Below are positions 2,682 to 14,148 of a DNA stretch of 64,000 nucleotides, piece by piece (position 1 is the first letter of the stretch; the number at the start of each line of letters is the position of its first letter). The translations under genes were made by a program, and so were the position numbers. Origin of the DNA: Rhodomicrobium sp. (GTDB lineage: Bacteria > Pseudomonadota > Alphaproteobacteria > Rhizobiales > HXMU1428-3); NCBI GenBank assembly GCA_021604665.1, contig BQJK01000003.1, forward strand, positions 62,001-126,000, read 5' to 3'. The notes under the pieces were generated by a model. It saw only the letters and a list, made by a program, of their open reading frames with translations. It ran no database searches and was not told where the DNA came from.

Positions 2682-3167
2682 TTATTCGCTATCTTCGGCA
2701 CTGCCAGCTTGGAGCAGACCATAATTTTGAATGCCAATATTCTCCAACAGTTCCAGTTGGGTTTCCAACCAATCAATATGGCCTTCTTCATCAGCCAGTA
2801 GCTCTTCGAACAATTTTTGGGTTACATAATCTTTCTTTTCTTCACAGACCTCGTGGGCTTCCTGATAAAGATTGCGGGCGCTATATTCACCGGCTAGATC
2901 ACATTCCAGACATTCTTTAATATCTTCACCGATCCGCAGTGGATCGAGATATTGCATATTGGGGTGGCCTTCAAGCATGAGGATGCGCTCAATCAACTTA
3001 TCAGCATGGCCCATTTCTTCGATGGATTCTTCGCGCAGTTTTTTCGCTAGCTTGGTGTAACCCCAATCTTCCAACAGGCGGTAATGCAACCAATATTGAT
3101 TTACCGCCGTCATTTCATGTTTCAGTGACTTGTTGAGATATTCAATGACGTCTTTATCGCCCTGCAT
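2682..3167 (-). CDS. bfr: Bacterioferritin
   Basis: 161 residues, the standard bacterioferritin length. It stores iron as a ferric mineral inside a 24-subunit cytoplasmic shell. All di-iron ferroxidase ligands are present: Glu18, Glu51, His54, Glu94, Glu127 and His130. Met52 (EEMGHADK) is the axial heme ligand shared by two subunits, which distinguishes it from plain ferritins. The start ATG at 3167 is the only one giving the canonical [16 protein letters not shown]-terminus. bfd lies 165 bp upstream on the same strand, so the storage protein and its release partner may be co-expressed. I found no clear Irr or Fur box directly upstream. Confidence 0.96.
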
Positions 3168-3332: not shown

Positions 3333-3647
3333 TTACCAGCTTCGCAGGCCTTGGCGTGTTTGTTTATTGACTGCCCGCTGGCTAGTGGCATTTTTCTTTT
3401 TATTTCTGATTTTCTCTTGCAATCTTGAGAGGTGAATGACCTGGCAGCCATTATGTGAAGGGTGATCAATTTCGTTAATGATGGTTTCTATTGCGAGTGT
3501 TAGGCAAGTGCCGCATTCAGCGCGGAAACCAAGCTTTTTATATATAAGCCCAGGGGTGAGCAAAGCGTTTGGGTCTTCTTCCAGAAGTTCAGTGACGACT
3601 GCCCGAATTTGTTTATCTGAAATTCGATTGCATGAACATATTATCAT
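3333..3647 (-). CDS. bfd: Bacterioferritin-associated ferredoxin (BFD-like [2Fe-2S])
   Basis: 104 residues with an N-terminal [2Fe-2S] module: Cys4, Cys6, Cys45 and Cys48 in the C-x-C ... C-x2-C arrangement typical of Bfd (MIICSCNRIS ... AECGTC). Bfd donates electrons to bacterioferritin heme to reduce and mobilise stored iron, and the position just upstream of bfr fits that. Residues after about 70 form a Lys/Arg/Asn-rich extension that ordinary Bfd (about 64 residues) lacks; its role is unknown. The true protein might be shortened by a sequence difference here, but I see none. Confidence 0.92.
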   Translation of the reverse strand: MIICSCNRISDKQIRAVVTELLEEDPNALLTPGLIYKKLGFRAECGTCLTLAIETIINEIDHPSHNGCQVIHLSRLQEKIRNKKKNATSQRAVNKQTRQGLRSW

Positions 3648-4162: not shown

Positions 4163-5701
4163 TTAAAAGAAGCCAAGTGCATCAGGGCTGTAGCTGACCA
4201 AAAGGTTTTTGGTTTGCTGATAATGTTCAAGCATCATTTTATGGTTTTCACGGCCAATGCCTGATTGTTTGTAACCACCGAAGGCCGCATGAGCTGGGTA
4301 GAGGTGATAACAATTTGTCCAGACGCGGCCCGCTTCAATATTGCGGCCCATGCGATAGGCCGTTGAGCCATCACGCGACCAAACACCAGCACCAAGACCA
4401 TAGAGAGTGTTGTTCGCAATTTTCAGCGCGTCTTCTTCTGTGTCAAAAGTGCTGACTGAGAGGACGGGTCCGAAAATTTCTTCCTGGAAGATGCGCATAT
4501 TATTATTACCAGCGAAAACGGTTGGCTCAATATAGAAGCCGTTTTCAAGATGACCGCCGAGGGACGCACGATGACCGCCGGTAAGCAGCTGCGCGCCTTC
4601 ATCATTACCGATCTTGATATAGGAGAGGATCTTCTCCATTTGATCGCGTGAGGCCTGGGCCCCTATCATTGTGCTTTCATCAAGCGGGTTGCCCATTTTG
4701 ATTTTTTTAACCCGGTCTACAGCCCGCTCAATGAAGCGGTCATAAATTTGGGATTGCACCAATGCCCGTGATGGGCAGGTGCAGACCTCACCCTGATTGA
4801 GAGCGAATAGAGCAAAACCTTCAAGGGATTTATCGAAGAAGGCGTCGTCTTTGGCCATAACGTCGTTAAAGAAGATATTTGGTGATTTACCGCCAAGCTC
4901 CAACGTTACTGGAATGATGTTCTCTGATGCGTACTGCATAATGAGACGACCGGTTGTTGTTTCGCCGGTAAAAGCAATTTTTGAAATGCGCGGTGAACTA
5001 GCAAGTGGTTTGCCGGCCTCAATGCCAAAACCGTTGACAATGTTCAGTACCCCTGGGGGTAGCAGATCACCGATAAGTTCGACGAGCGCCATGATGCTGA
5101 AAGGGGTTTGCTCAGCTGGTTTCAGGACGATGCAATTGCCCGCGACCAAGGCTGGAGCCAGCTTCCACACAGCCATGAGAATTGGGAAGTTCCATGGAAT
5201 GATTTGCCCAACCACACCCAATGGCTCATGGAAGTGATACGCAACTGTTGTTTCATCGATCTCTGAGATGCCGCCTTCTTGAGCGCGGGCACAGCCAGCG
5301 AAATAACGGAAATGATCAATAGCCAAGGGGATGTCTGCGGCTTTGGTCTCTCTGATCGGCTTACCGTTATCGATTGTTTCTACGGTTGCAATGGCCTCCA
5401 AATGTGCTTCCATCCGGTCAGCGATTTTTAGAAGGCAATTGGCGCGCTCAGTTGGTGAGGTTTTGGCCCACCCCGCTTTCGCTTTATGGGCTGCGTCTAG
5501 CGCTGTTTCAATATCTGCGGCGCTGGAGCGGGCGATTTCACAAATGATCCCGCCATCAATTGGTGATATATTTTCAAAGTATCGACCCTCTGCTGGGGCG
5601 ACCCACTCACCGCCGATATAATTGTCGTAACGCTTGCGAATTTTCAGCTTATCGCTGAGGGCTTCGAGCGCTTGTGTTGGTGTTTTGATAATCTGATCCA
5701 T
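4163..5701 (-). CDS. aldB: NAD-dependent aldehyde dehydrogenase (acetaldehyde type)
   Basis: 512 residues from the ATG at 5701, which has a strong AGGGAG ribosome site; an upstream in-frame ATG at 5755 has none and would add an atypical extension. The enzyme oxidises aldehydes, probably acetaldehyde, to acids in the cytoplasm. Key residues: Asn171 (PWNFP), Glu268 ([10 protein letters not shown]) and catalytic Cys307 ([10 protein letters not shown]). The CTCPS version of the Cys motif and the adjoining DUF779 gene both match AldB/ExaC-like acetaldehyde dehydrogenases. No acoR or other sigma54-type activator is next to it. The upstream neighbour on the same strand (5977-6546) is separated by 275 bp, so aldB probably has its own promoter. 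Confidence 0.93.
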
Positions 5702-5976
5702 CGATTTCTCCCTGAGTATTTTGCACTTATACGTAATTATTGCTGTTTTATGCATTATATTACACTGTAGATTCGTGCTAATTTCTTCAGGTTATTCCTC
5801 TGTTTCAGTGGCTAAAACTTCTTTGTCTGCATGGCAGACATTGTTGAATTTGCATTATTCTACGATAGTCACATGTTTGAGATGGTTGTCTCTGCCTTTT
5901 ATTGTTGGGTGCCAGGGTCTTTGTGGCCGTGACTTTTACCCCCACCCCTTTGGCCTTGCCTCTAATATGAAGTGGC

Positions 5977-6546
5977 CTAGCCTGTCGCCTTCAGAGTCTC
6001 GGGTAGGTTTTGAGGTTCTATTTGCCAGGCTGCAAGACTTGCGGTGCCTTGTAGCGTGAGATCATTTGAGAGCAGATGATGTGCAAATTTATTTGTGGCT
6101 GTGACGACCGGCTCAACGTCATCCCCGCCAATAAGCGCATAAGCGCAAGCGGCGAGAGCTGGGCAAGCACTTTGCTGGCCAGCGGCAATCATGGTGATTG
6201 CCATGCGCTCATTTGAGTTGAAATGATCGCTTTCCCATGGGGCCACTTCGATATCGCGGTCAGCTGACTGATGCACGGTCTGTACCCAAAAGGCCAGATC
6301 TGCGATTGTGCTGCGGGCTGTTTCAACCCCAAGATGACCGGCGAAATAATCCCAGCTGCGTTTCCAGAATTCGATATCTCTGGTGCGGTAACCGGTCATC
6401 CAGAACCGGAAGCCCAGCCCTACCAGTTGCTCTGGTGATTTAAGCGGTGCGGTAAAGCCTGCATTTTTGAGAGCTGGATTCTCTTTATTTATTTTCTCTA
6501 GAATTTCATTGATGATGGCTGTTTCATTGTGCTGGATCTCACTCAT
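5977..6546 (-). CDS. Unrecognised protein, paralog A of the divergent iron-locus pair
   Basis: 189 residues; I do not recognise the family. It is clearly homologous, by eye about a third identical, to the protein at 7670-8293 on the other strand. The shared core runs from LVGLGFRFW (41-49) through T-x-D-I-x-F, a central FWV (86-88) and AITMIAAGQQSACPALAAC (116-134); Cys128 and Cys134 in CPALxAC are conserved in both. No signal peptide or membrane segment is evident, so it is probably a soluble, mostly helical cytoplasmic protein. Translation is probably coupled to the 72-residue ORF upstream: its start codon overlaps that ORF's stop as ATGA, and an AGGGAG site lies 8 nt before the start. Function is unknown; context suggests a role linked to iron. 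Confidence 0.82.
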   Translation of the reverse strand: MSEIQHNETAIINEILEKINKENPALKNAGFTAPLKSPEQLVGLGFRFWMTGYRTRDIEFWKRSWDYFAGHLGVETARSTIADLAFWVQTVHQSADRDIEVAPWESDHFNSNERMAITMIAAGQQSACPALAACAYALIGGDDVEPVVTATNKFAHHLLSNDLTLQGTASLAAWQIEPQNLPETLKATG

Positions 6547-6761
6547 GCGCTTGCTCCCTCTTGGCTGGATAAACAGGCTTTGGGTGAGGGATAGTGGGTT
6601 GGTCCTGCCATAAGGGTTGATAATGTGCTGACCGCTAAAAAGACCGGATCTAAACAGAGTATTTCTGATGTGAGAGGTAGCGGGGTGATCGCGGATGGTG
6701 TGCGGTTTTTGGCTGTCAGTGATGACAAGCCGGACGCGGGGCGCCGTGCATCGTAGTTCAT
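6543..6761 (-). CDS. Small ORF (72 residues) translationally coupled to paralog A
   Basis: The ATG at 6761 follows a GGAG ribosome site that belongs to the 37-nt leader at 6768-6804, and the stop overlaps the next gene's start (ATGA). The peptide is Ser/Pro/Thr/Ala-rich with two Cys (in EILCLDP and KACLSSQ) and no membrane segment. It has no visible similarity to the 55-residue ORF in the matching position on the other side. It may be a leader peptide, a small functional protein or only a translation-coupling device. Confidence rests on the ribosome site and the overlap, not on homology. Confidence 0.5.
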   Translation of the reverse strand: MNYDARRPASGLSSLTAKNRTPSAITPLPLTSEILCLDPVFLAVSTLSTLMAGPTHYPSPKACLSSQEGASA

Positions 6762-6767
6762 TATTCT

Positions 6768-6804
6768 ATCTCCAATAGACGGGATTCAAGGTCCCGTAAT
6801 CAGA
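6768..6804 (-). promoter_or_regulatory. 37-nt conserved mRNA leader with hairpin next to RBS (left copy)
   Basis: On the minus strand this stretch is identical over 37 nt to the plus-strand stretch at 7213-7249. It contains ACGGGA-CCTTGAA-TCCCGT, a 6-bp hairpin with a 7-nt loop, and ends in the GGAG ribosome site of the small ORF starting at 6761. A structure placed about 5 nt before the Shine-Dalgarno suggests a binding site for a translational regulator or a short RNA switch. Confidence 0.75.
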
Positions 6805-7107
6805 TTAATCTTCTGTCTTGCTTACCACAGCCGGCCTCTGAAACTAGCTTGCTGCGCTTCTGTTTATTGCAGCTGAAAAAGCGCTGTTTTGTCAGAGACT
6901 TTATGAGCACTCATGTTGTTTTACTACATGATTTAAATGCTTTATCTGGCTTTGCTGCCGGTTAGGACTTACCTGAAAAGCCTTGTAGATTTAGCGCCAT
7001 TTATCTCTTCATTTTGCGGATAATTTCACTGCAATTTGTAAGCTAGACGAAGGCATGATCAGCCAATGGGTGTGGTTTTGTCAATAATTATTGTGATTGT
7101 CGTTAAA

Positions 7108-7124
7108 TTTAGAATGATTATAAA
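7108..7124 (+). promoter_or_regulatory. Irr-box / iron control element (ICE)-like site
   Basis: TTTAGAATGATTATAAA is a near-palindrome with one mismatched pair between half-sites TTTAGAA and TTATAAA. It closely matches the ICE/Irr-box consensus known from Rhizobiales (TTTAGAA-N3-TTCTAAA). Its centre lies about 35 bp upstream of the -35 element at 7149, a location used for activation by Irr in known cases. The genes it would control, imelysin and partners, fit iron-limited expression. Confidence 0.6.
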
Positions 7125-7148
7125 CTATTGTTTTTATTCATTTTTCTA

Positions 7149-7178
7149 TTGACGAATTTTTTTATCTCAGCTTATTCT
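7149..7178 (+). promoter_or_regulatory. Sigma70-like promoter for the rightward iron operon
   Basis: TTGACG (7149-7154) and TATTCT (7173-7178) are separated by 18 bp. Transcription would begin near 7185 and include the hairpin leader at 7213-7249. Only sequence similarity supports it. Confidence 0.45.
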
Positions 7179-7212
7179 CTCTGAAACCTGCCAGCGACTG
7201 GTGGGTGTTTGG

Positions 7213-7249
7213 TCTGATTACGGGACCTTGAATCCCGTCTATTGGAGAT
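7213..7249 (+). promoter_or_regulatory. 37-nt conserved mRNA leader with hairpin next to RBS (right copy)
   Basis: Exact inverted copy of 6768-6804. The hairpin occupies 7220-7238 (stem ACGGGA/TCCCGT) and the GGAG ribosome site is at 7244-7247, 8 nt before the ATG at 7256. Both divergent transcripts therefore begin translation from the same 5' element, although the sequences on either side differ. Confidence 0.75.
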
Positions 7250-7255
7250 GAGAAA

Positions 7256-7423
7256 ATGACCACTATTCCTTCGCCAGATGGCACGGCGTTTGCCCGTTTA
7301 TATTCTGGCTTTCATACCCTTCCTTTCTATTCATATGAGCCTGTCTCTGATGGGCTTGGCTTCGATGCGAGTGAGCCTCAGCTTGGCAAGGTTTTGCCTC
7401 GCTCAGTGCTGGATTTGATTTAA
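7256..7423 (+). CDS. Small ORF (55 residues) behind the conserved leader
   Basis: ATG at 7256 with a well-spaced GGAG site; 55 codons to the TAA at 7421. The peptide starts MTTIPSPDGTAFARLYSGF, is rich in aromatic residues, Pro and Asp, lacks Cys, and ends VLPRSVLDLI. No signal peptide or membrane helix. The next gene on the strand begins 246 bp later. It may be a small protein, a peptide precursor or a regulatory upstream ORF; I do not recognise it. Real translation is suggested by the ribosome site and by the parallel arrangement at 6543-6761. Confidence 0.5.
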   Translation: MTTIPSPDGTAFARLYSGFHTLPFYSYEPVSDGLGFDASEPQLGKVLPRSVLDLI

Positions 7424-7669
7424 AGCGAGTTGGTTTGGTCAGCGCTTTATGTCAATGCGCGGGCTGTTCCATTTAGGGCAATGATTGCACCAAATTCGGT
7501 TGCATATCTTTTAACAAATTCAGCCCCTGCCTTAACTCAAATAACCTTCGAGCTTTGTCTGGTCACCCTCAGTTTGGGCTGTGATCATTATTATTAGCTA
7601 GCTGGCCCTCTAGAGCTTATTCAAAAGTTTCTCAGGGCTGATAACCAGTGAATAGATTTTCGGATTGAA

Positions 7670-8293
7670 ATGATGAAACTTAAAACACATGCCAGATTTG
7701 GCACTCCGTCTGCGGTGAGCGAAACCCTGATGGACCAGGATGATTTAGATGAAACTTATAACCACGAGCACCGTGAACTAACTGCGCCCTGGAACTATGA
7801 AGACCCTTCGCCGCTGAGTGACCCAGCGCGGCGGGCTGAGAGATTGGTGGGGCTTGGGTTCCGGTGCTGGGTGCGCGGCCTTCAAACCAGCGATACAAGA
7901 TTTTTTGATGTTTGCAGCCGTCAGTATATCCAGAGTTTTGGACTGAAGGATGGGCTGGTGCTCTCGACCCGGCTTGGCTTTTGGGTCAATGCGCTCACTG
8001 ATGTGAGGAAGCGGCCTTTCTCAATTTTTGAAGTTGGCTCACATGGGTTTAGCCATGATGAAGCTGTTGCGATTTCCATGATTGCTGCATCTCAGCATGC
8101 GGAATGCCCAGCGCTTCGGGCTTGTATTTTTGCGATTACAGAAGCGGTAGATACCGACCTGGCACAATTAGCGGCGCAGGATTTTGCGGATGGGCTGATT
8201 GATGCAGGCAAAATTTTACGACCAGGGGCAATTGCCTACCCGTTACAACATATGGCAGCGGGAGACACAGCAAGCGGCGGCCTGGCGCATTGA
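7670..8293 (+). CDS. Unrecognised protein, paralog B of the divergent iron-locus pair
   Basis: 207 residues and homologous to the 5977-6546 product: LVGLGFRCW (59-67), GFWV (103-106), SHDEAVAISMIAASQHAEC (128-146) and CPALRAC (146-152) align with it. The N-terminal 55 residues are acidic and not shared. No signal peptide or membrane helix is seen. The start is uncertain: tandem ATGs at 7670 and 7673 have no strong ribosome site, and Met21 (7730) is an alternative. The imelysin gene follows after 44 bp, making a shared transcript likely. Family and function are unknown; co-location with periplasmic iron genes suggests a regulatory or maturation role in the cytoplasm, which is inference. Confidence 0.82.
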   Translation: MMKLKTHARFGTPSAVSETLMDQDDLDETYNHEHRELTAPWNYEDPSPLSDPARRAERLVGLGFRCWVRGLQTSDTRFFDVCSRQYIQSFGLKDGLVLSTRLGFWVNALTDVRKRPFSIFEVGSHGFSHDEAVAISMIAASQHAECPALRACIFAITEAVDTDLAQLAAQDFADGLIDAGKILRPGAIAYPLQHMAAGDTASGGLAH

Positions 8294-8337
8294 GTGCGTT
8301 TAATTGCGTAGATTTTAAAACGAATAAGGAGAGTTTG

Positions 8338-9630
8338 ATGATCAATAATGTGATGCGGCAGTTTGGTGCCGTTATGACGGTTGGCCTGGCACTTGGTGTC
8401 AGCGGAGGGGCTGCCAGTGCGGCAGAACCGAAGGTAAAGGATATTGTGAATACCTACGCCGATATTGCCCATGCAGGATATGAAGATAGCCTGCTGACGG
8501 CCAAAGCCCTGAAGAGCAAATTGGAAGCTTTGGTACAATCACCTACATCTAAAACACTAGCCGCTGCCCGCAAGGCGTGGATTGCTGCCAGGGTGCCTTA
8601 TCAGCAAACTGAGGCTTTTCGGTTTGGTAATGAGGTGGTTGATAATTGGGAAGGCAAGGTAAATGCCTGGCCGCTTGATGAAGGGTTAATTGATTATGTT
8701 TCTTCTGATTATGGCGACAGCTCAGATGAGAATGATCTTTATACTGCAAATGTCATTGCCAATAAGACCATTACCATTGGCGGTAAAACTGTTGATGCCA
8801 GCACCATTGATAAGAAGCTGATCTCTGAAACTCTGCATGAAGCGGGTGATGTTGAAGCCAATGTTGCAACCGGCTATCACGCGATTGAGTTTCTCCTTTG
8901 GGGTCAGGATTTGAACGGCACTGGCAAAGGGGCTGGCAACAGACCTGCAACTGACTTTGACAAAAAGAATTGCAGCAATGGCAATTGTGACCGCCGGATT
9001 GATTACCTGATGGCAGCGACAGATCTTTTGATTGATGACCTCACAGAGATGACCGGCCATTGGAGTAAAGATGGTTCTGCAAGGAAAACATTGTTGGCGG
9101 CAAGCGACAGCGAAGCTTTAAACGCCATCTTTACCGGGCTTGGCTCGCTTTCTTATGGTGAGCTGGCGGGTGAGCGGATTAAGCTTGGCCTGATGCTGCA
9201 TGACCCGGAAGAAGAGCATGACTGCTTTTCTGACAACACCCACAATTCACATTTCTACGATGCGCTTGGTATCCAGAATGTTTATCTCGGCCGCTATAAG
9301 CGGGTGAATGGTGATGTTGTTTCAGGTGCCTCTATTTCTGATCTGGTGCAGGCGCGTGATGCAAAAGTTGATAGTGAGTTGAGAGCTAGACTTGAAACAA
9401 CTATGACTGCCATGGGCGCTATGGTGAAGCGTGCTGAAACAACTGAGGCCTATGACCAAATGATTGGTGAGGGCAATGATGAAGGCAATGCTGTTGTGCA
9501 AGCTGTTGTTGACGGGCTATCTGGACAAACACAAGCTTTGGAGCGTGCGATAGCAGCGCTTGAATTGAAAGCCATTCAGTTTGAAGGCTCTGACAGCCTT
9601 GATGCGCCTGAAAAAGTCGGCGCTGAATAA
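8338..9630 (+). CDS. Imelysin-family periplasmic iron-acquisition protein (IrpA-like, M75)
   Basis: 430 residues from the ATG at 8338, which follows a clear AAGGAG site; an earlier in-frame start at 8290 has none. The N-terminus is a signal peptide ending near ASAAE (residue 30), so the protein is exported to the periplasm. The imelysin signature GxHxxE appears as GYHAIE (Gly179-Glu184), followed by FLLWGQD. Two Cys lie in KNCSNGNCD. Imelysins are iron-regulated and act in uptake or binding of iron; no peptidase activity is established for the bacterial iron-uptake group. It heads the set imelysin-porin-DHOR-imelysin-DUF1513. Confidence 0.92.
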   Translation: MINNVMRQFGAVMTVGLALGVSGGAASAAEPKVKDIVNTYADIAHAGYEDSLLTAKALKSKLEALVQSPTSKTLAAARKAWIAARVPYQQTEAFRFGNEVVDNWEGKVNAWPLDEGLIDYVSSDYGDSSDENDLYTANVIANKTITIGGKTVDASTIDKKLISETLHEAGDVEANVATGYHAIEFLLWGQDLNGTGKGAGNRPATDFDKKNCSNGNCDRRIDYLMAATDLLIDDLTEMTGHWSKDGSARKTLLAASDSEALNAIFTGLGSLSYGELAGERIKLGLMLHDPEEEHDCFSDNTHNSHFYDALGIQNVYLGRYKRVNGDVVSGASISDLVQARDAKVDSELRARLETTMTAMGAMVKRAETTEAYDQMIGEGNDEGNAVVQAVVDGLSGQTQALERAIAALELKAIQFEGSDSLDAPEKVGAE

Positions 9631-9704: not shown

Positions 9705-9960
9705 CGATTATATTGTTACAACATAACGATTGCTATGTTATATCATCACAAAATAATCAGTGGCATTTCGGTAACAGCCAGTATGGGAAATCGATATGTG
9801 ACTGTTTGTGACCTTGCCGGACTAAATTTCTAGCCCTAGGGTCTAACCCAGCTATCTTATTGATTTTATTGTTGTTTTTTAGTTTTACTCAACAATATCT
9901 TTTCGTTTCATGCATCTATTCCCGGGGGTCCGGGAGAGTGACATTTATGGGGGACATTTC

Positions 9961-11256
9961 ATGTCTATTACTTCTTTTAGGGGGATCTCACGTGCGGTGG
10001 TTACCGGCGCATCCCTGTTTGCTTTTGCCTCGATGGGCAATTTTTCTACCGCGCAGGCGGCTGATTTCGGCGGCGATTGCTGCGCTGATCTTGAAGAGCG
10101 GGTTGCCGTTCTTGAATCAACGACAGCTCGCAAGGGCAACCGCAAAGTTTCTCTAACCATTTCTGGTCATGTAAACCAGGCATTGCTGTTGTGGGATGAT
10201 GGCGATGAGAGTGATGTTTATGTTGTTGGCAATGCCAATGATGATCTCAGCATGTTCCGTTTTGAGGGCGACGCTAAAATCGCGCCTGGATGGACAACTG
10301 GTTTCACCATGGAAATTGAAGTGGCGAGCGCTTCGTCTGGTGATGTTTCACAAACAGATGATGATGCCGCGAATGAAATAGGTATCAGCGAAGTCTCTAT
10401 GTACATTGAGAGCGAACGCTATGGTAAAGTTACCTGGGGTTTTGCCGGGCAACCTTCTGATGGTGCCCCTGAGATGGACCTTTCCGGTGCCCATTATGCT
10501 GGCTATGCAGCGATTGCTGATGTTGGTGGTGGCTTCCAGTGGCGCATGAATAATGGCCTTGGTCTTTCAGGTGTTACGCTTGGTGGGGTTTTTGATGATC
10601 TGAATGGTGATACCTTCAACATCATCCGTTATGACACTCCAACAATCGCTGGTTTCACACTTTCTGCTGCCTGGGGTGAAGATGACCTTTGGGACGTGGC
10701 GCTTACATATGAAAAAGAGCTAGGTGCTTTTGAAGTGGCTGCTGCGATTGGCTATACTGAAAACAGAGACAATGATGATGATGGCCCGTTAAATAATGAC
10801 ACGCTGGCAGGCTCTGTTTCTATTCTTCACACACCAACTGGACTTAACCTGACATTTGCTGCAGGTGAACGCCAGTTCAACAACACACCAGGCCGGGCTG
10901 ATGCTGACTTTTATTATGTGAAAGCTGGTATTTTCCGCAGATATAACAGCCTTGGTAAAACAGCTATCTATGGTGAATATGGCCAGTATAATGACATGTT
11001 CTACAATGACGGTGCTGATGGCGCTGATGCTGCCGCCATTTCAAATGCGCTAACAGGTAATGGTGCTGCTGTTATCAATGGTAGTGAAGCCACTGTCTGG
11101 GGTGTTGGTCTTGTTCAATATGTTGACGCCGCCGCTATGCAGCTTTTCCTCGCTTATCGTCATCATGAGCTTGATCTTGATGCTGCCGGTGGTCTTGCTG
11201 TTAATGGGTTAGAAGATTTTGACACTGTTTTAGCTGGTGCTCGGATCGAGTTTTAA
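9961..11256 (+). CDS. Outer-membrane porin (alphaproteobacterial porin_2 type)
   Basis: 431 residues from the ATG at 9961 (GGGGGAC ribosome site); an upstream ATG at 9910 gives no signal peptide at its start. The signal sequence ends near AQAAD (about residue 30). Next comes a short DCCADLEERVAVLES segment, a coiled-coil-like stretch common near the N-terminus of rhizobial porins, followed by many alternating amphipathic segments (for example VSLTISGHVNQALLLW). The C-terminus is LAGARIEF, with the terminal Phe needed for outer-membrane assembly. Many acidic residues (DDGDE, NRDNDDDG) lie in predicted loops. Its place inside the iron cluster suggests it may help iron or iron complexes enter, but general porins cannot be assigned a substrate from sequence. 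Confidence 0.88.
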   Translation: MSITSFRGISRAVVTGASLFAFASMGNFSTAQAADFGGDCCADLEERVAVLESTTARKGNRKVSLTISGHVNQALLLWDDGDESDVYVVGNANDDLSMFRFEGDAKIAPGWTTGFTMEIEVASASSGDVSQTDDDAANEIGISEVSMYIESERYGKVTWGFAGQPSDGAPEMDLSGAHYAGYAAIADVGGGFQWRMNNGLGLSGVTLGGVFDDLNGDTFNIIRYDTPTIAGFTLSAAWGEDDLWDVALTYEKELGAFEVAAAIGYTENRDNDDDGPLNNDTLAGSVSILHTPTGLNLTFAAGERQFNNTPGRADADFYYVKAGIFRRYNSLGKTAIYGEYGQYNDMFYNDGADGADAAAISNALTGNGAAVINGSEATVWGVGLVQYVDAAAMQLFLAYRHHELDLDAAGGLAVNGLEDFDTVLAGARIEF

Positions 11257-11333
11257 TCCTCAGATCCGAAACCCTATTCAACTTTAAAGTTATGATATGA
11301 TTGTTTTACAGATAAGACGATTTATAGAAACGC

Positions 11334-11366
11334 AAGTCCTCACCCACCGGGTGGGGACTTTGTTTT
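11334..11366 (+). terminator. Terminator after the porin gene
   Basis: A 12-bp stem (AAGTCCTCACCC with GGGTGGGGACTT, one G-U pair) and ACC loop are followed by a T-rich tract. It separates the porin transcript from the downstream DHOR gene. Confidence 0.75.
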
Positions 11367-12883
11367 ATTCCAGGTTTTATAGCGGATTTAAATTTCTGCG
11401 CTTGCCCCATAATAGCTTTTTAGGGGCTGGTGTTTTGGGGCTTTGCCTCATTGCATCGGGGTTGGTTTTCTCACTTCCGGCAAAAGCTGAAAACTCTGTT
11501 ACCGCGGTTTTTGAACCTGGTGAAGATTTGCCTGGCGGGGAGGCAACCTATCGCAAGCGGGCGAATAATCGCAATGCTTTTTCCCATTCTTCCGGTAATC
11601 TCAAATTTAAAGATGAGCTGCTTTTTAAAGTCGGCAATGGCTTGTTTCGCAAGCTTTGGGTTTCGTCTCCCTCCTCAACCAAATCATCTGATGGGCTTGG
11701 GCCGTTGTTTAATGCCCGCTCTTGCCAGCGCTGTCATCTGAAAGATGGGCGCGGTCATACGCCGAATGCGAACTGGCCAGACGATAGCCAGGTTTCTATG
11801 TTTCTCAGGCTTGCCGTGCCGCCGCGCTCAGATGAAGAGCGGGCATTGCTCAAGGCTGGCAAAGTTTCAGTTATTCCCGAGCCAACATATGGCACACAAT
11901 TACAAGATCTTTCGGTGCAGGGGCATAAGGGTGAGGGGCATATGTCTATTCACTATTCACCCCGCACTGTCACATTTAAAGATGGCACTGAAGTAGAGCT
12001 GCGGGTGCCGCATTATAAAGTTACTGACCCCGCTTATGGCCCGCTGGCCGATGATGTACGCATTTCTCCGCGGGTCAGCCCGCAGATGATTGGGCTTGGG
12101 CTGCTGGAAGCTATACCTGAAGCTGATATATTAAAGCGGGCTGACCCGCTTGATAAAGATGGTGATGGCATCTCTGGCAAGGCCAACCGGGTGTGGTCAC
12201 TTGCCAATAAGAAATTGATGCTCGGGCGCTTTGGGCTGAAAGCCGGGGCGGTCTCGGTTAAAGAACAATCTGCTATGGCGTTTGCTGGCGACATTGGTAT
12301 CGCAAATAGCCTGGTGCCGCGCCCCTTTGGGGACTGCACCAAAGCTCAAGCCCTTTGCCAAAAGGCCCCGCATGGCGCTGACGATGAGCTTGGTACCATT
12401 GAAATTTCTGACAAAATGCTTGATCTTGTTGCTTTTTATGCCCGCAACCTGGCGGTGCCGAAACGGCGCGGTGCTAGGGATGAAGCCGTATTAAAAGGCA
12501 AGCATCTGTTTCATCAGGCTGGTTGCGCTTCTTGCCACGCGCCGTCTTTTACCACCGGTGCCTCACCGGGCAACCCGCATCTTGAGGGCCAGAAAATCTG
12601 GCCTTATACGGATATGTTGCTGCATGATATGGGTGATGGGCTGGCGGATGAGTTGGTTGAAGCGAAAGCCAGTGGCCGTGAATGGCGGACATCTCCTTTA
12701 TGGGGCGTTGGCCTAACAAAGACTGTGAGCGGCCATGAATTTTTGCTGCATGATGGGCGGGCGCGCTCTGTTGAAGAGGCTATTCTGTGGCATGGCGGAG
12801 AAGCTGAGACGGCGCGCGCTTTTTACATGGCGCTTAATAAAGAGCAGCGTGACTATTTGCTGGCATTTGTTAAGTCACTTTAA
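11360..12883 (+). CDS. Di-heme oxidoreductase (DHOR family), periplasmic
   Basis: About 507 residues. The open frame extends back to an ATG at 11297, but that start would lie upstream of the porin terminator, so a TTG at 11360 or a later alternative start is more likely; the start is uncertain. A signal peptide ends near LPAKAEN. Two c-type heme sites are visible, CQRCH and CASCH (Cys122/Cys125/His126 and Cys389/Cys392/His393 from the TTG). The arrangement matches the DHOR family of di-heme proteins found between two imelysin genes in many proteobacteria, where it is thought to handle iron redox during uptake. An ATP-independent periplasmic role is inferred. Good match in length and order. 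Confidence 0.88.
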   Translation: MFYSRFYSGFKFLRLPHNSFLGAGVLGLCLIASGLVFSLPAKAENSVTAVFEPGEDLPGGEATYRKRANNRNAFSHSSGNLKFKDELLFKVGNGLFRKLWVSSPSSTKSSDGLGPLFNARSCQRCHLKDGRGHTPNANWPDDSQVSMFLRLAVPPRSDEERALLKAGKVSVIPEPTYGTQLQDLSVQGHKGEGHMSIHYSPRTVTFKDGTEVELRVPHYKVTDPAYGPLADDVRISPRVSPQMIGLGLLEAIPEADILKRADPLDKDGDGISGKANRVWSLANKKLMLGRFGLKAGAVSVKEQSAMAFAGDIGIANSLVPRPFGDCTKAQALCQKAPHGADDELGTIEISDKMLDLVAFYARNLAVPKRRGARDEAVLKGKHLFHQAGCASCHAPSFTTGASPGNPHLEGQKIWPYTDMLLHDMGDGLADELVEAKASGREWRTSPLWGVGLTKTVSGHEFLLHDGRARSVEEAILWHGGEAETARAFYMALNKEQRDYLLAFVKSL

Positions 12884-12981
12884 GCTTGGCCTTTTCGGCG
12901 CGGCAGTCTGTAATTAATGCTAAGATTGCTGTGGCGTTTTTGGCTCGCTGCTCGTCTTGTCCTTTTTATGGAGTTTAGATT

Positions 12982-14148
12982 TTGTTCGCTCTCTTCTCTT
13001 GCTTTTTTAGCCGCTATTTACCTCTTTTTGCGGGCTTGGCACTAGCTCTTGGGATGGGGTTTGGCATCCTGGTCGCCTCCCCCTCAGCTCAGGCTGCCAG
13101 TGAAACGGAGGAGATACTTAGCCATTTGGCAGAACGGGTGATAACCGGGCATATTCAACCGCGCTATAAAGATTTGCAGCAAAAGAGCAGTGAGCTGGCT
13201 TTAGGCATGGCGCAGTTTTGCGAAACTGGGGGGTCGCTTCATGCGCCGCGTCAATTATTCACCAAAACGGTCTTAGCCTTTGCGGCCATTGATCATATTC
13301 AATTCGGCCCAGCTTCTGAGGAGTACAGGCTTGAGCGCTTCGCTTATTGGCCGGACCGCAAGGGGCGGGGACTTAGAGCGGTGCGGCGGGTTTTAAAATC
13401 GGGCGATAAAACAGTGTGGAAGGCGGCGGCGCTTTCGCAAAAAAGCGTGGCGGTGCAGGGGCTGACAGCTCTTGAATTTTTGCTCTATGGCAAAGGCTCT
13501 GAAACGCTGGCGACTGTTGATGGTTCTGAAGCCAATGCTGCTGCTAACTTCAGGTGCCGTTATGGGCTTGGTATCGCGCAGAATTTGCAAGCCATTGCAA
13601 CTGAGCTTTCTGATGAATGGCAAGCTGGCGCGCCGATCGTCACGGCGCTGTTAGCGCCCGGGGCAGGCAACAAGCTTTATCGCACACGCAAAGAAGTGAT
13701 CCTCGAATTCTATAAGGTTGTGACGGCGGGGCTTTCGCGCATCCATGACCTTAAAATGAGCCCGCTTATCGGGCGTGATGCTGCCCATGCAAAACCCAGA
13801 CGGGCGGCGTTTTGGAGATCTGGAATGGCGCTTGATGTCATTCGGCAGAACCTCACCGCGATTGAAGATTTGATTACTGTGGGCCGGTTCCGTGAATTAT
13901 TGCCAAAGAAACCAATTGATCTGCCAGCCTATGTCGACAAACTCTTTCAATATCAATACCGGGCGATTGATGGATTTAAAGGCGATAAGCATAGGGGTGA
14001 TATTGCGCTTATTCTGCAAGATGAAAATGGCAGGGCGGCCTTTCAGCAATTAATGAACAAGATCAATCATACTGCTGTTGGCTTTGGCCGCAACCTTGCT
14101 GTCGCGGCGGATTTGCCTATGGGGTTTAATGCATCCGATGGAGATTAG
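12982..14148 (+). CDS. Second imelysin-family protein
   Basis: 388 residues from a TTG at 12982, 8 nt after a GGAG site; no ATG is in frame before the signal peptide. The signal sequence ends near SAQAAS (about residue 39), so it is periplasmic. The motif equivalent to GxHxxE reads GLTALEFLLYG: the His is replaced by Thr, as is common in the second imelysin of these clusters. It probably works with the first imelysin and the DHOR protein. The DUF1513 gene starts inside its last codons, indicating coupled translation. Confidence 0.88.
   Translation: MFALFSCFFSRYLPLFAGLALALGMGFGILVASPSAQAASETEEILSHLAERVITGHIQPRYKDLQQKSSELALGMAQFCETGGSLHAPRQLFTKTVLAFAAIDHIQFGPASEEYRLERFAYWPDRKGRGLRAVRRVLKSGDKTVWKAAALSQKSVAVQGLTALEFLLYGKGSETLATVDGSEANAAANFRCRYGLGIAQNLQAIATELSDEWQAGAPIVTALLAPGAGNKLYRTRKEVILEFYKVVTAGLSRIHDLKMSPLIGRDAAHAKPRRAAFWRSGMALDVIRQNLTAIEDLITVGRFRELLPKKPIDLPAYVDKLFQYQYRAIDGFKGDKHRGDIALILQDENGRAAFQQLMNKINHTAVGFGRNLAVAADLPMGFNASDGD

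Follow-up and report, generated by a model that had tools for sequence, protein, structure and literature searches.

Comparison of sequences across the order Hyphomicrobiales suggests that a short hairpin placed beside the Shine-Dalgarno (SD) sequence is an unrecognised mRNA-level switch for iron genes. The hairpin occurs as a pair of leaders in the 64-kb window (the whole stretch of DNA that was analysed, 64,000 nucleotides) and, by the genome searches reported here, is far more widespread than that pair and restricted to one order, in which the genes that follow it mark out an iron regulon.

The two leaders of the window are inverted with respect to each other and identical at 37 of 37 nucleotides, GGAG included, and their flanks are unrelated (13/60 nucleotides alike before the two leaders, 18/50 after them), as the first-pass annotation of this DNA had described; a repeat search stretches the pair to 47 nucleotides at 91% identity (6758-6804 and 7213-7259). 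Both contain a hairpin with a 6-bp stem, ACGGGA/TCCCGT, and a 7-nt loop, CCTTGAA, and the GGAG begins exactly 5 nt past the end of the stem in each, a placement that was also borne out. The predicted fold of each leader has an energy of -11.6 kcal/mol with both helices formed. The 19-nt hairpin matches twice in the window and 0.00 times across 100 dinucleotide shuffles, so that chance is ruled out for the two matches. An ATG follows each leader, at 7256 (plus) and 6761 (minus), and the surrounding features are collected in Table 1. The stop of the 72-aa ORF and the ATG of the next gene share a 4-nt ATGA overlap, which recurs in two congeners (G004 and G006). The 55-aa ORF has no match in Pfam or NCBIfam and no relative among viral contigs. 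Bacterioferritin-like and Bfd-like genes lie in the same window (2682-3167 and 3333-3647, both minus), with no leader element detected.

Table 1. Features around the two leaders, in coordinates of the 64-kb window
Feature	Position	Strand	Remarks
189-aa helical protein, unnamed family (LVGxGFR...)	5977..6546	-	First full-length gene of the minus unit
Short ORF, 72 aa	6543..6761	-	Started by the SD of the minus leader
Leader, minus copy	6768..6804	-	TCTGATT; stem ACGGGA 6797-6792; loop CCTTGAA 6791-6785; stem TCCCGT 6784-6779; spacer CTATT; GGAG 6773-6770
Irr-box (ICE)-like site TTTAGAATGATTATAAA	7108..7124		Between both leaders; 1 mismatch to TTTAGAANNNTTCTAAA, which we take to be the consensus
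Leader, plus copy	7213..7249	+	TCTGATT 7213-7219; stem 7220-7225 / 7233-7238; loop CCTTGAA 7226-7232; spacer CTATT; GGAG 7244-7247
Short ORF, 55 aa	7256..7423	+	Started by the SD of the plus leader
207-aa paralogue of the 5977-6546 protein	7670..8293	+	By protein alignment
Imelysin (Peptidase_M75)	8338..9630	+	Next gene of the plus unit; PF09375, E=4e-86
Further genes of the plus unit, together	9910..14148	+	The three features below
Porin-like ORF	9910-11256	+	'Porin-like' by inspection alone
Di-haem oxidoreductase	11297-12883	+	PF06537
Second imelysin	12982-14148	+	PF09375

The exact preservation of the leaders had been taken to imply either selection or very recent copying, and of these the argument from selection finds no support and copying gains. 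When the leaders of the paralogous genes are compared with each other in six congeners (G002-G007), 24-31 of the 37 positions are identical per genome, and full identity is unique to the source genome among the seven compared. Because the two leaders differ from each other in all six congeners, the 37-nt identity is not itself a sign of selection; it is probably a local event, recent copying or conversion in the source lineage. On the comparative evidence the sign of selection is what the leaders of the congeners keep constant, namely stem pairing, loop and ATTGGAG, all present in both leaders of the six, with one G005 copy carrying CCTTGAC.

At up to three mismatches the source genome has no copies besides the two leaders. 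A covariance model (R1) built from 12 copies scores 57.4 bits for each of them and finds a third, diverged copy beyond the window (contig C3:153595-153632, 30.9 bits), with an FbpA-like ORF downstream. At E<=0.05 the same model has matches in 123 of the 397 genomes from the order, spread over 56 of 141 genera (about 93 genomes at E<=0.001), so that the conservation outside this genome on which the first-pass annotation had staked a functional element is in fact extensive. Named records identify the order as Hyphomicrobiales. A class-wide draw of 385 genomes returned the source genome only at E<=0.001 (0/384 others), the four matches in a phylum-wide draw of 299 genomes all belong to the same order, and viral contigs contained no element. 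An exact degenerate pattern run over named genomes found at least 118 stretches. Hyphomicrobiales names or unspecific MAG names account for the 80 matches listed, except for one labelled Bacillus subtilis. That record (JAHREI010000001.1, L186), entered as Bacillus subtilis SK6B4, has the element and also encodes a near-identical counterpart of the Pseudochrobactrum protein (L196); it is probably mislabelled. A repeated 19-mer in other genomes, ACGGGATTTTGAATCCCGC, was dropped as antisense to tRNA-Leu, and most other inspected matches at three mismatches lie inside coding frames or are without the loop. Rfam 15 has no match over the element, either in window positions 5500-8700 or in 13 element-bearing loci, and a scan for intrinsic terminators (stem, then T run) did not report it.

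The link to iron raised by the first-pass annotation is borne out by the genes downstream. With each context defined by the first recognised gene that follows on the element's own strand, 115 of 116 contexts belong to some dozen gene families, most of them related to iron or Fe-S, with the proviso that 'recognised' is partly circular, since the classifying queries came from the same loci. FbpA-type binding proteins head the list with 50 contexts, followed by an unnamed helical family (29), imelysin (13), Bfd (8), cupredoxin (5), DUF2325 (3) and IscA-type proteins (2); a TonB receptor, FeoB, SufB, an ABM monooxygenase and a siderophore-type binding protein occur once each, and one context is without a family. 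Family names are from Pfam, the Bfd match falling under its curated cut-off, and the FbpA naming and the iron role of cupredoxin are in part our assumption. Among the 80 named copies in the matches listed, imelysin follows 31, the unnamed family 26, FbpA 13 and Bfd 8, and two stand at contig ends. The place of the element beside the SD is fixed: GGAG lies 4-9 nt from the start codon in 175 of 185 copies and 5-8 nt in 159, which fits translational control on this positional evidence. A mechanical rule assigned the SD directly to the iron gene in 97 of 196 copies and to a short ORF in 85, leaving 14 unclassed; the short-ORF cases chiefly precede the unnamed family and imelysin. Upstream of imelysin in Mesorhizobium (L162, L167, L172) such ORFs share a similar start (MSFFRxxR...) and a fast-changing remainder, and these may be leader peptides.

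Compensatory changes in the stem, proposed at the outset as the mark of an RNA element, were found. The 119 model matches and 80 named copies were reduced to 111 distinct ungapped sequences, and to 75 after removal of those with fewer than three differences, and 528 column pairs were ranked by an APC-corrected G statistic. In the 75-sequence set ranks 1-4 are stem pairs 10-24, 13-21, 9-25 and 11-23; in the 111-sequence set these rank 1, 2, 4 and 5, with pair 7-28 third. Pair 12-22 is nearly invariant and the outermost, 8-26, pairs in only 42-45% of sequences. Columns 7 and 28, which flank the stem, covary strongly (rank 3-5 of 528) in non-canonical combinations (G-G, A-T, T-T) that might come from a contact within the internal loop or from an effect of lineage. 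The loop, columns 14-20 with consensus CCTTGA[A/C], is near-fixed among the 111 sequences (C14 in 110, T16 in 111, T17 in 111, G18 in 99, A19 in 108, A20 in 97), so that CCUUGAA and the adjoining AUUGGAG are nearly invariant. In alignment A2, which was itself fitted to the model, a caveat on its pair counts, 89.4% of cells are paired against 84.5% after shuffling, double-change cells number 64 against 21.0, and slid structures score far lower.

Two features looked for in a cis-regulatory RNA, covarying base pairs and a sense-strand wobble asymmetry, are present. Over the five inner pairs there are 35 G-U and 7 A-C combinations, where independence expects 66.5 and 37.7, and the reduced set has 21 and 5. 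G-U and A-C are equivalent in a DNA palindrome, so the large excess of G-U places the base pairing, as judged from these counts, on the sense-strand RNA. Many Mesorhizobium and Brucella copies retain only GGG/CCC and some weak pairs in the stem, and for these the case for a structure is genuinely weaker. An outer helix is possible as well: the consensus YCCGAT 5' of the stem can pair with the ATTGG of the SD and does so in the minimum-energy folds of both window leaders, with a pairing potential of 85-97% per position over five pairs. Covariation in this helix is not above independence, and for 13 variant 3' arms the cognate 5' arm offers no better pairing than the 5' arms of other copies (50 against 50.4 expected); since folding favours the helix and covariation does not, it is kept as a possibility.

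Of 115 contexts, 80 have an ICE-like site, defined as within three mismatches of what we take to be the Irr-box consensus, in the 250 nt upstream; dinucleotide shuffling yields 3.1, and in a distal control window only 1 of 111 has one. Irr boxes are described in PMC3413700. A site of this kind upstream puts the element downstream of the promoter region, and this suggests that the hairpin is situated in the 5' untranslated region of Irr-linked transcripts.

Parallels with known systems are instructive. The element resembles MS2-type operators of phage coat and ribosomal proteins in being a small SD-proximal hairpin at which binding would block initiation, but it is common to a regulon of unrelated genes and, as far as seen, is not autogenous. 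The eukaryotic IRE has a CAGUGN loop and a bulged C; the likeness to the IRE/IRP system lies in a single short hairpin with conserved loop and covarying stem near the start of several unrelated iron genes, whereas the present element is bacterial and SD-proximal, has no C bulge, and its loop, CCUUGAA, does not match CAGUGN. The HmuP-responsive element (HPRE), in the 5' untranslated region of haem-receptor genes of rhizobia, has likewise been proposed to act in post-transcriptional control by iron or haem (PMC9131926); its sequence is GCCAGCCAG-like, and the targets of our element are mostly not haem receptors. An HmuP/HPRE reading was rejected on the difference in sequence and on the lack of any match to the hemP/HmuP family (PF10636) in the source genome. 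The RirA box, the Irr box (ICE) and the Iron-Rhodo-box serve the same gene classes in the same or related lineages as DNA operators at promoters (PMC8822346, PMC3413700 and PMC4618611); the element differs in sitting at the SD, in its sequence and in its sense-strand RNA signature. The Iron-Rhodo-box/IscR candidate was set aside as a promoter palindrome that resembles the RirA box. No description of the element was found in the open-access papers searched, where Rodionov 2006 is represented through later papers only, and the main text of a review of rhizobial riboregulation (PMC7143759) has no word starting with 'iron'.

The position at the SD, the pairing on the sense strand and the near-invariant loop together argue for control of translation by an agent that recognises the loop. 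On balance it seems somewhat probable that the leader acts in cis as an RNA hairpin within the 5' untranslated region of iron-acquisition transcripts, where a trans factor, most likely a protein, blocks translation when iron suffices. The GC-rich stem of 5-6 bp would display the loop CCUUGA(A/C), with the SD AUUGGAG no more than 2-3 nt beyond the stem, and at that distance a binder of the hairpin would cover or expose the ribosome landing site. The candidate factor would hold loop and stem in iron sufficiency and depart under scarcity; we favour repression in iron-replete cells because most of the targets are genes that serve the cell under iron limitation. Pairing of the flank YCCGAU with AUUGG may contribute to closing the SD site. 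In the window both short ORFs would be controlled, the next gene on the minus strand being coupled through the ATGA overlap.

Other readings of the hairpin deserve consideration. It could be a very small riboswitch that binds an iron complex, haem or an Fe-S metabolite directly with no protein, as a near-invariant loop, a covarying closing stem by the SD and a regulon serving one nutrient would allow, but roughly 34 nt and a single irregular helix leave little room for a ligand pocket, and some members of the order have a stem of just GGG/CCC, which makes this unlikely. If anything slightly less probable is a conserved small RNA that pairs with CCUUGAA in the fashion of RyhB: the conserved loop, the varying stems and a site adjoining the SD speak for it, yet a target consisting of the loop alone needs no covarying stem, and the stem covaries strongly. 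A constitutive, signal-free hairpin that enhances translation or stabilises the mRNA would account for the good SD and spacing of nearly every copy; a generic stabiliser has no need of mostly iron genes or of a near-invariant loop, and we rate this as quite improbable.

An operator in double-stranded DNA, with the inverted repeat as the binding site of an iron-responsive transcription factor, gains from the palindromes bound by known iron regulators of the group (RirA at TGA-N9-TCA, PMC8822346) and is improbable, if a shade less so than the constitutive hairpin. On inspection the 37-nt leader contains no TGA-N9-TCA, the orientation of the loop is fixed, as is the SD spacing, the disparity between G-U and A-C is unexpected for DNA, and a separate ICE-like site lies upstream. 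Recent duplication with no function, to which the confinement of the 37-nt identity to one genome would point, is contradicted by order-wide conservation and covariation and is very nearly untenable.

For the reading as a hairpin bound by a trans factor, no such factor was found. The unnamed all-helical family (about 170 aa, LVGxGFR...FCRDECLAIS...) has two members in the window, neither matched by any Pfam or NCBIfam model; an AlphaFold2 model of the 189-aa protein has a mean pLDDT of 82.7, and a fold search of the PDB gave nothing at E<=0.001. Of 394 genomes from the order, 128 encode the family; 81 genomes have both element and family, 42 the element only, 47 the family only and 224 neither, and no convincing element was seen in 20 of the 47 family-only loci examined (best 11.4 bits, E 0.31). 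The family is thus associated with the element yet not obligatory as its factor, given the 42 element-bearing genomes that lack it.

Iron control in the Hyphomicrobiales has so far been described through DNA-binding regulators (Irr, RirA, Fur/Mur). We would propose, tentatively, that members of the order, Brucella, Mesorhizobium, Phyllobacterium and Hyphomicrobium among them, possess a regulon for iron that works post-transcriptionally, atop transcriptional control by Irr, in which an IRE-like hairpin on FbpA, imelysin, Bfd, FeoB, Suf and receptor mRNAs is served by a candidate iron-sensing RNA-binding reader. If this is true, the reader of the hairpin becomes searchable by pull-down, and a translational layer would be added to iron control in plant symbionts, relatives of animal pathogens and free-living bacteria.
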